Of a stretch of 31,247 bases of DNA, positions 26,516-29,389 are shown piece by piece (position 1 is the stretch's first letter; each line of letters starts with the position of its first letter). Origin of the DNA: Candidatus Aminicenantota bacterium (GTDB lineage: Bacteria > Acidobacteriota > Aminicenantia > JAMOAD01); the NCBI GenBank assembly GCA_027061995.1, contig JAMOUT010000077.1, positions 1 to 31,247 on the forward strand. The letters are read 5' to 3'. A model generated the notes under the pieces. That model saw only the letters and a list, made by a program, of their open reading frames with translations. It did no database searches and had not been told where the DNA came from. Both the position numbers and the translations under genes were made by a program.

Positions 26516-26827
26516 TTATCCTTTAATTTTGGAAAGAACGGAATTTTTCTTATATTCCATATCTATCTCCTTATCCCTTCTATCATCGATTGTAATTAAA
26601 GTTACAACCCTTTTTGCTCCGTGTTTAAATGACTCATTATGAATCTTCCGTCCGAGAGTAAAAAGTTCTTCGATTTTACCCTCTATAACGGTAGCCGTAG
26701 GTGTAAGTTCGAACTTTAGCCCCGAATCTTTTATTATTTCAAGTGCTCTTGCAACATAACCGCTTACACTTGTTCCCCCCTCTTTTTCCGGAGGGGAAGG
26801 GATTATTGTTATCTGCATCATTGCCAT
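26516..26827 (-). CDS. MTH1187/YqgV-type thiamine-binding-family protein
   Basis: This 103-residue ferredoxin-like-fold protein has the family pattern. The N-terminal strand is MQITIIPSPPEKEGGTSVSG, then YVARALEIIKDSGLKFELTP, the conserved TATVIEGKIEELF, and HNESFKHGAKRVVTLITIDD. Members bind thiamine or its derivatives in their oligomeric form; the cellular role is poorly known. No Shine-Dalgarno precedes the ATG, but a promoter sits directly upstream, so the mRNA is probably leaderless. No thi genes or TPP riboswitch were seen nearby. Confidence 0.85.
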   Translation of the reverse strand: MAMMQITIIPSPPEKEGGTSVSGYVARALEIIKDSGLKFELTPTATVIEGKIEELFTLGRKIHNESFKHGAKRVVTLITIDDRRDKEIDMEYKKNSVLSKIKG

Positions 26828-26902: not shown

Positions 26903-29389
26903 ATGGATTATCTTATTATAAGAAAAGCGAATCAAAATAATCTTAAATCAATAAATCTTAAGATACCGAGACGGAAATGGACTGTTATTACGGGAGTTTC
27001 AGGGTCAGGTAAATCATCTCTTGCATTTGATACTATTTATGCCGAAGGGGAGAGAAGATATCTTTCAACTCTGTCTCTTTATGCGAGGCAATTTCTTAAA
27101 CAGCTTGAGAAAGCTGATGTTGAGTCAATAAAGGGGCTTTCTCCGACCATATCGGTTGAGCAAAAAACAATAGCTCCCAATCCCCGTTCAACCGTTGGCT
27201 CTGTTTCCGAAGTTTATGATTATCTTAGGCTGCTTTTTGCAAGGGTAGGGGAGCTATATTGCCCCGTATGCGGAGACAAGATAAATAAGATATCGGTTTC
27301 CGAACTTATAGGGAGGATCTTTGAAAAATACGAAGGGAAAAAGGTTAGAATACTGGCTCCCGTTATAATGGGGAGAAAGGGGGAATTCAGGGCTTTATTC
27401 GAAGATTTCGGTAAAAAGGGTTGGACGAGAGTTAAGATAGACGGAGAATGGGATGAGATAGACAGAGAAATAAAACTTGAAAGAAACAGAGAACATTCGA
27501 TAAGTGTTTTAATCGATTCGGTTAAAGTTGAAGAGAGTCGTAGAGACAGGTTACAAAAAGGGATTATAGAAGCTGTGGAAATTGCTAAAAATTCGGTTAT
27601 CATTGAAATTGAAGAAAAGGAATATCTGTATTCAACGGAATACTATTGCCCCAAATGCGGACTCTCTTTTAAAGAATTTGAACCGAGAAATTTTTCTTAT
27701 AATTCACCTTACGGATATTGCCGGAGATGTAAAGGGTTGGGTGTAATATTAAAAGACACCCGTAATGGGGTTGAGGAAAAAGAGATTTGCCCCGTATGTA
27801 AAGGAAAAAGATTAAGCGATGAAGTTTTGAATGTCAGAATCAATGGAAAAGATATCGCTTACTATGGGATGATATCAATTAAAAAACTTTTAAAAGAGTT
27901 ATCGGAAATCGATTTCAAAGGGAAAAAAAAGAAGATAGCCGATAAAATACTTGATGAACTTATTGAAAGATTAAAAGTTTTGGATGAGCTTTCCTTGGGA
28001 TATCTGAGTTTGTTCAGACCTGTTTATTCACTTTCGGGAGGAGAAGCTCAGAGGATAAGGCTTGCTTCTCAATTAAGCTCAAAATTAAAAGGGATAATCT
28101 ATGTTCTTGATGAGCCGAGTATAGGTCTTCACCCTGTTGATCATAAAAAATTGTTGAAAGTTTTGGAAAGGATTAAAGATTACGGTAATACGATTATTGT
28201 TGTCGAGCATGATGAAGATACTATAAATAGTGCCGATTATATTGTTGATTTGGGACCCGGCGGTGGGGAAAACGGAGGCAAACTTTTATTTGCGGGGGAA
28301 TATGAAAAATTTCGAGAAGCGGATACAATGACCGCAAAATATATTAGAAAAGAACTGGTGCCTTATATAAAAGCCGAGAGGAAAAAACCCGTAGCTTGGA
28401 TTAAAATAAAAAAAGCTTATAAGCATAATCTTAAAAATGTGGATATTGATATACCTCTCGGAGTTTTAACCGTTATAACCGGTGTGTCGGGTTCGGGGAA
28501 AAGCACCCTGCTTTTCGATGTTTTGAAAAAAGGGATAAATATGAAGAAAAAGGGTAAATTAAAACAGGGGAGAGGGTTTGACGATATATCGGGAGTTGAT
28601 AATGTATCAAGGATAATAGAGGTTGATCAATCTCCCATAGGAAAGAATGTCAGATCCACCCCCGCAACATATTCGGGAATCTTTGATGAAATAAGAAAAC
28701 TTTATGCGATGCTTCCCGAATCAAGAGCAAAAGGGTTTGATTCCCCTTTTTTTTCATACAATGTTTCAAAAGGGAGATGTCATAAATGTGAAGGTAAAGG
28801 GATAATAAAAGTTGAGCTTGGTCTTTTGCCCCCGGTTTATTTAAGATGTGAAGAGTGCGGAGGGAAAAGATACGGAGAAGAACTTCTTAAAATAAGATTT
28901 AAAGGGAAAAATATAGCTGAAGTTCTTGATATGACTGTTGAAAAATCATTGGAACATTTTAAAAATATCCCGAAAATAAGAGATAAACTCGGTTTTTTAA
29001 AAGAGATAGGGATGGATTATATTAAGCTCGGACAACCAACCCCTAATCTTTCGGGCGGAGAAGCTCAAAGGATAAAAATTGCTAAAGAGCTCGGAAGAGG
29101 TGTAAAAAAGAATACACTCTATCTTCTTGATGAACCGACCGTGGGACTTCATTTTAATGATATTAAAAAATTGATAAAATCTTTAAGAAAATTTACCGAG
29201 AGGGGAGACAGCGTAATAATAATAGAGCATAATCCCGATATAATATATTCCGCGGATTATGTGATTGATCTCGGACCCGAAGGTGGTGAAGAGGGAGGGT
29301 ATATAATTGCAAAAGGGACTCCCGAACAAATAATGAAATTTGAAAACTCAAAAACCGGTTTGGTTCTTAAACGGATATTCGGTAAATAG
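26903..29389 (+). CDS. uvrA: Excinuclease ABC subunit A lacking the insertion domain
   Basis: UvrA finds bulky DNA lesions and loads UvrB in nucleotide excision repair. The 828-residue protein has Walker A GVSGSGKSS (31-39), a UvrB-binding domain (about 118-240) and zinc module CPKCG/CRRC (249-276). CPVCKGKRL (296-304), signature LSGGEAQRIRLA (377-388) and VLDEPSIGLH follow. The second half has Walker A GVSGSGKST (527-535), zinc module CHKC/CEEC (626-652), LSGGEAQRIKIA (716-727) and LLDEPTVGLH. Usual UvrA has about 940 residues. Only 19 residues separate Cys276 and Cys296, where about 120 are usual, so the insertion domain is missing. The frame is open and the flanks intact, so this looks natural and not like a frameshift. 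Confidence 0.96.
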   Translation: MDYLIIRKANQNNLKSINLKIPRRKWTVITGVSGSGKSSLAFDTIYAEGERRYLSTLSLYARQFLKQLEKADVESIKGLSPTISVEQKTIAPNPRSTVGSVSEVYDYLRLLFARVGELYCPVCGDKINKISVSELIGRIFEKYEGKKVRILAPVIMGRKGEFRALFEDFGKKGWTRVKIDGEWDEIDREIKLERNREHSISVLIDSVKVEESRRDRLQKGIIEAVEIAKNSVIIEIEEKEYLYSTEYYCPKCGLSFKEFEPRNFSYNSPYGYCRRCKGLGVILKDTRNGVEEKEICPVCKGKRLSDEVLNVRINGKDIAYYGMISIKKLLKELSEIDFKGKKKKIADKILDELIERLKVLDELSLGYLSLFRPVYSLSGGEAQRIRLASQLSSKLKGIIYVLDEPSIGLHPVDHKKLLKVLERIKDYGNTIIVVEHDEDTINSADYIVDLGPGGGENGGKLLFAGEYEKFREADTMTAKYIRKELVPYIKAERKKPVAWIKIKKAYKHNLKNVDIDIPLGVLTVITGVSGSGKSTLLFDVLKKGINMKKKGKLKQGRGFDDISGVDNVSRIIEVDQSPIGKNVRSTPATYSGIFDEIRKLYAMLPESRAKGFDSPFFSYNVSKGRCHKCEGKGIIKVELGLLPPVYLRCEECGGKRYGEELLKIRFKGKNIAEVLDMTVEKSLEHFKNIPKIRDKLGFLKEIGMDYIKLGQPTPNLSGGEAQRIKIAKELGRGVKKNTLYLLDEPTVGLHFNDIKKLIKSLRKFTERGDSVIIIEHNPDIIYSADYVIDLGPEGGEEGGYIIAKGTPEQIMKFENSKTGLVLKRIFGK

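Follow-up and report, generated by a model that had tools for sequence, protein, structure and literature searches.

Introduction

How does a UvrA protein manage without its insertion domain (ID), the part of UvrA thought to probe damaged DNA? The question is raised by a gene in a stretch of 31,247 nucleotides from an Aminicenantota bacterium (the window), whose UvrA product misses exactly this domain. Shortened UvrAs of class II are familiar, and these lose the UvrB-binding domain. Whether UvrA needs the ID to recognise damage has so far been judged from laboratory deletions, and these disagree. Deleting the ID of E. coli UvrA reduced damage discrimination but preserved transcription-coupled repair, while no apparent in vitro defect is cited by the same source for the B. 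stearothermophilus deletion (PMC3025350), and DNA binding was lost in Ecm16, a class II protein without ID (PMC10192343). Natural, repeatedly evolved ID-less UvrAs, along with a near-identical pair of UvrAs with and without ID from the genus g78, now make this question directly testable.

Results and Discussion

A class I UvrA without insertion domain

The gene, referred to as compact uvrA in the following, and its features are located in the window as listed here.

26903..29389, + strand: compact class I uvrA, 828 aa (TIGR00630 score, AlphaFold2 model, structure alignment)
26993..27016, + strand: Walker A of ATPase half I (GVSGSGKS, residue 31)
27293..27613, + strand: UvrB-binding domain PF17760, residues 131–237, including the GRKGE motif (Pfam 94.2 bits; alignment)
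27647..27730, + strand: zinc module 2, CPKC...CRRC, residues 249–276
27743..27787, + strand: 15-residue linker VILKDTRNGVEEKEI at the ID position, with a predicted beta hairpin 281–284 / 292–295
27788..27799, + strand: CPVC at residue 296, the first residues past the missing domain
28031..28045, + strand: ABC signature I (LSGGE)
28481..28504, + strand: Walker A of ATPase half II
28778..28858, + strand: zinc module 3 (CHKC...CEEC), residues 626–652
29048..29062, + strand: ABC signature II (LSGGE)

By homology and family score, the product is a UvrA of class I that is without one feature of its class, the ID. It scores 1053.7 bits against the curated UvrA family TIGR00630 and thereby exceeds the cut-off of 729.8, stays slightly under that of PRK00349 (1091.7 versus 1147) and reaches 670 bits with PRK00635, the model of fused double UvrAs, for which the cut-off is 3054. 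Both ATPase halves are intact, as seen from two GVSGSGKS and two LSGGE motifs, VLDEP/LLDEP and VVEHD/IIEHN, which cover Walker A/B, signature and His switch, and six CxxC pairs starting at residues 120, 249, 273, 296, 626 and 649 make up three zinc modules, their cysteines being invariant in the alignment. The UvrB-binding domain PF17760 (UvrA_inter) was found in 44 of 44 compact UvrAs, which furthermore retain zinc module 3 and most of the DNA-binding arginines. The initial annotation had described all parts other than the ID as intact, in agreement with these findings, and its statement that the protein does not belong to class II equally holds, since the UvrB-binding domain is kept; we therefore rejected a class II assignment of the window gene.

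The ID itself, represented by PF17755 (UvrA_DNA-bind), gave no Pfam match in the same protein that matched PF17760. In its place, the sequence runs from GLG at residues 278–280 through 15 further residues to Cys296, so that Cys276 and Cys296 are separated by only 19 residues. The equivalent CxxC pairs of E. coli UvrA start at residues 277 and 406, with 125 residues between C280 and C406; thus, a stretch of about 125 residues including the ID has been exchanged for 19. The best sequence match in the PDB aligns residues 2–284 and 294–826 of the compact protein, while the PDB chain jumps from 307 to 426 and about 118 of its residues are skipped. The count of 19 residues and the clean loss of the ID, both proposed from the sequence beforehand, were confirmed. 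The zinc module beside the gap, previously labelled the first, turned out to be the second module bearing CxxC pairs, as a further CxxC is found at residue 120.

An AlphaFold2 model of the single chain (mean pLDDT 87.7) contains predicted strands at residues 281–284 and 292–295 connected by a low-confidence turn, and this predicted hairpin would stand at the position of the ID. Structure alignment of the model with M. tuberculosis UvrA (3zqj) by VIA-align resulted in a Z score of 46.9 over 809 residues at 3.8 Å, and the identity to solved UvrA chains ranges from 44 to 52 % in the structure alignment. Compact UvrA shares two ABC halves, three zinc modules and the UvrB-binding domain with the class I proteins of E. 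coli, B. stearothermophilus, T. maritima and M. tuberculosis, but differs from them in having the 19-residue predicted hairpin between Cys276 and Cys296 instead of the ID. The class II proteins D. radiodurans UvrA2, Ecm16 and DrrC are likewise shortened and alike in the ABC core, yet they represent the opposite case, as they are without the UvrB-binding domain and compact UvrA is without the ID. The same domain has been removed in the laboratory constructs E. coli delta290–400, ID-less B. stearothermophilus UvrA and T. maritima d117–399 (6n9l), of which compact UvrA is a natural, conserved counterpart.

An operon joining compact uvrA to repair genes was considered and rejected, as none was seen; its neighbours encode beta-barrel proteins, a TonB receptor and a thiamine-binding protein of PF01910. 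The PF01910 gene (MTH1187-like) lies at 26516–26827 on the − strand, divergent to uvrA, and no repair gene is adjacent.

Spread of the gap, repeated loss and selection

A gap of this kind might arise from an assembly error, which its presence in related genomes speaks against. In a 199-genome sample of the phylum, the compact form aligned end to end in 21 genomes including the query, with 6–22 residues linking GLG to the next cysteine. The same gap occurs in the nearest relatives, other Aminicenantia families, other Acidobacteriota, Nitrospirota, Deltaproteobacteria and Planctomycetota. A DNA pattern spanning the ID junction in one codon choice only was furthermore scanned across 84,980 species and yielded at least 118 loci. 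Of the matches listed, 46 were set aside as hits to the C-terminal zinc module only, and at least 72 are genuine UvrAs or UvrA halves without ID from many phyla, among them Nitrospirota, Planctomycetota, Deltaproteobacteria and Aminicenantes.

Because nearest relatives, other families and other phyla all have the gap, it is not an assembly deletion; the search in related genomes that had been suggested thus ruled out this error. An artefact of assembly or frameshift was rejected on the same grounds, with the gap common to dozens of species, the frame intact and the gene under purifying selection, the latter following from dN/dS values of 0.05–0.13 for compact genes. A decaying or mis-assembled copy without function, for which the missing domain alone could be cited, is refuted by these dN/dS values, by catalytic motifs that are all intact and by a gap shared between dozens of species and also present in G123, a genome that is 99 % complete in two contigs; we give this explanation practically no weight.

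The initial annotation had called the protein a different and possibly undescribed compact form. Rare it is not, given at least 72 loci. We found no description of a natural ID-less class I UvrA in the open-access literature, which is weak evidence of novelty because the search was limited to that literature.

In the trees, compact UvrAs are scattered at several places among ID-bearing ones. In the genus g78, the compact UvrA of G123 (855 aa) shares 92 % identity with the full-length protein of G165 (934 aa, CxxC spacing 124) and 75 % with the one of G096 (938 aa), and its ID has been cleanly excised. Judged from this 92 % identical pair within one genus, loss of the ID is recent, precise and repeated. 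A single origin of all compact UvrAs is unsupported, considering their several tree positions and the independent recent loss in g78. Both G123 and G165 additionally hold a second, ID-bearing UvrA of the type described below, called partner UvrA. We also observed for G123 (L028/L256) and G165 (L251/L254) that the partner UvrAs are 99.3 % identical with a dS of 0.05, while their main UvrAs, one without and one with ID, differ by a dS of 0.44, as if an allele had been replaced.

A second, ID-bearing UvrA

The initial annotation had also proposed a search of the genome for a second full-length uvrA and for uvrB and uvrC. Besides the compact UvrA, the window genome encodes exactly one other, which bears an ID, as well as one UvrB and one UvrC. 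The partner UvrA comprises 896 aa, is encoded on another contig (C57:69987–72677) about 5 kb from uvrC, and its structure model matches UvrA structures throughout. Its ID is shortened, with a CxxC spacing of 110, and its UvrB-binding region is also shortened and has lost the RGRKGEY motif, which is gone in most partners. PF17760 gave no Pfam match among those listed for this protein; of 33 such partners, 32 do give one with E values up to 1. Among the partners read, a CxxC spacing of exactly 110 is found in almost every one from Aminicenantia and in each one from Nitrospirota, compared with 124–130 in canonical UvrAs, and partners share an ID motif ending in HVRVFLSRYR..CP.C. In the tree, a branch with 100/100 support separates compact UvrAs, canonical UvrAs and the ID-less C-halves of fused UvrAs from partners and ID-bearing fused N-halves. 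No description of this short-ID lineage was found in the open-access literature. The partner of the window genome (L003) has LSRGE as ABC signature I at residues about 450–458, a variant seen in this protein only; LSGGE is found in its nearest relatives.

We considered whether the partner has lost all of its contacts with UvrB, but this is unsupported, as R216 (E. coli numbering), one of the residues contacting UvrB, is retained in 27 of 27 aligned partners. With E222 kept in 23 of 27 as well, the partner may still bind UvrB. The compact protein of the window has Ile at position 222.

Of 47 sampled Aminicenantia genomes outside the aberrant family f3, 46 contain both UvrA types, the exception being G249, and exactly one of each was found in 10 of 10 Nitrospirota genomes checked; mostly they are the only two UvrAs of these genomes. 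In G249 and G266, only the compact UvrA was seen, and both assemblies may be incomplete. Across the phylum sample, the partner ID motif is present in 126 of 199 genomes, that is in 22 of 22 compact-bearing genomes (in one of them the compact gene is truncated at a contig end) versus 104 of 177 others. The resulting association (Fisher p 2.7e-5 for 199 genomes, ignoring kinship) is suggestive but not decisive, because the baseline of 59 % is high. Since the partner is also common beside full-length UvrA, its role cannot consist merely in replacing a lost ID.

A possible division of labour between two UvrAs

As nearly all compact-bearing genomes hold a second, ID-keeping UvrA, a mixed pair may operate in them. 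The reading that we favour, at a rough probability of 0.48, is that compact UvrA is functional, belongs to class I, lost its ID by a precise deletion in an ancestor and forms one half of a UvrA heterodimer, with the ID supplied by its partner. The two proteins would dimerise; the compact subunit, keeping its UvrB-binding domain, would load UvrB, and the partner, through its shortened ID with an invariant K.YK.xVRV.LSRYR-type motif, would contact DNA, its ID acting in trans within the mixed dimer and its own binding of UvrB being weak or absent. Directly established as the base of this proposal are the domains present, the conserved gap, the repeated loss of the ID, purifying selection on compact genes, the co-occurrence of the two types and their fusion into one chain elsewhere. 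With a second, ID-keeping UvrA next to one UvrB and one UvrC in the genome, the ID loss would more likely mean that two UvrA subunits divide the work than that lesions are discriminated from normal DNA in a new way.

Observations that speak against a heterodimer are R216 in all aligned partners, the occurrence of the partner beside full-length UvrA, the compact UvrA as the only one seen in G249 and G266, and the genus g5 of family f3. In the g5 genomes G214 (L273, L280) and G216 (L274, L279), both UvrAs are ID-less, the partner-lineage protein having a CxxC spacing of 19, and an ID-bearing UvrA was not found in these two genomes. The g5 case and the partner beside full-length UvrA would both fit the main rival explanation, an ordinary homodimer of compact UvrA that needs no ID and tells lesions by the zinc-3 hairpin, signature II and UvrB, with the partner being independent. 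Zinc module 3 and the arginines retained in compact UvrAs are also in line with it, as is the ID-less B. stearothermophilus protein, for which PMC3025350 cites no apparent defect in vitro. Such a homodimer is nevertheless at odds with E. coli UvrA, which without residues 290–400 is less able to discriminate damage and achieves poor repair of plasmids (PMC3025350), with the ID-less class II protein Ecm16, which binds no DNA (PMC10192343), and with the fusions of partner-lineage and ID-less halves described below, which suggest joint action. On balance, we regard this explanation as rather unlikely, although it competes most closely with the heterodimer.

The E. coli deletion brings up one further explanation, as the ID-less protein loses far less of transcription-coupled than of global repair (PMC3025350). 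Compact UvrA could accordingly be specialised for transcription-coupled repair, where delivery by Mfd would make recognition by UvrA dispensable, leaving global repair to the ID-bearing partner. Compact UvrA has kept the domain binding UvrB and Mfd, and a 1126-aa open reading frame of the genome contains a UvrB-like segment suggestive of Mfd, but Mfd is near-universal and its presence thus proves nothing. With its eroded UvrB-binding domain, the partner would moreover be ill suited to carry out global repair on its own, and fusions would be unexpected if the two roles were separate, so that we consider such a specialisation a distinctly weaker candidate than the homodimer.

Returning to the heterodimer, the short-ID paralogue with its eroded UvrB-binding domain and the fusions suggest that the UvrA dimer may be asymmetric, which, if true, would bear on strand choice by a symmetric damage sensor. 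More far-reaching and in our eyes doubtful is an obligate form of it, in which UvrA of several bacterial phyla would be an asymmetric heterodimer with the sole competent UvrB-binding domain on one subunit and the sole ID on the other. If so, damage would be sensed on one side and UvrB loaded from the other, and the sensor would be asymmetric by build, not by later symmetry breaking through loading of two UvrBs.

Fused double UvrAs

The main hint that ID-less and ID-bearing UvrAs may act as one unit comes from fusions. Desulfobacterota and Thermosulfurimonas encode single chains of about 1760–1840 aa that consist of a partner-lineage N-half with an ID spacing of 110–111 and a C-half that has a good UvrB-binding domain but no ID. 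The likeness of the fused double UvrAs (PRK00635, 1809 aa; Desulfobacterota fusions) to the pair described here is read from these Desulfobacterota and Thermosulfurimonas members, with their ID-less C-half and ID-bearing, partner-like N-half; the window genome differs in having two separate genes on different contigs. A second, unrelated-looking fusion of about 1640 aa has the UvrB-binding domain in its N-half only and the ID in its C-half only, and was found in Asgard archaea, Theionarchaea, another bacterium and a few Aminicenantia (L064, L097, L099, L133, L146, L239).

Planctomycete UvrAs (L080, L092, L218, L220) lie in even longer reading frames of roughly 2000–2490 aa, exceeding any UvrA fusion known to us. 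One fused double UvrA was detected in a metagenome bin titled Klebsiella pneumoniae (L132), which is unlike that species and renders the title doubtful.
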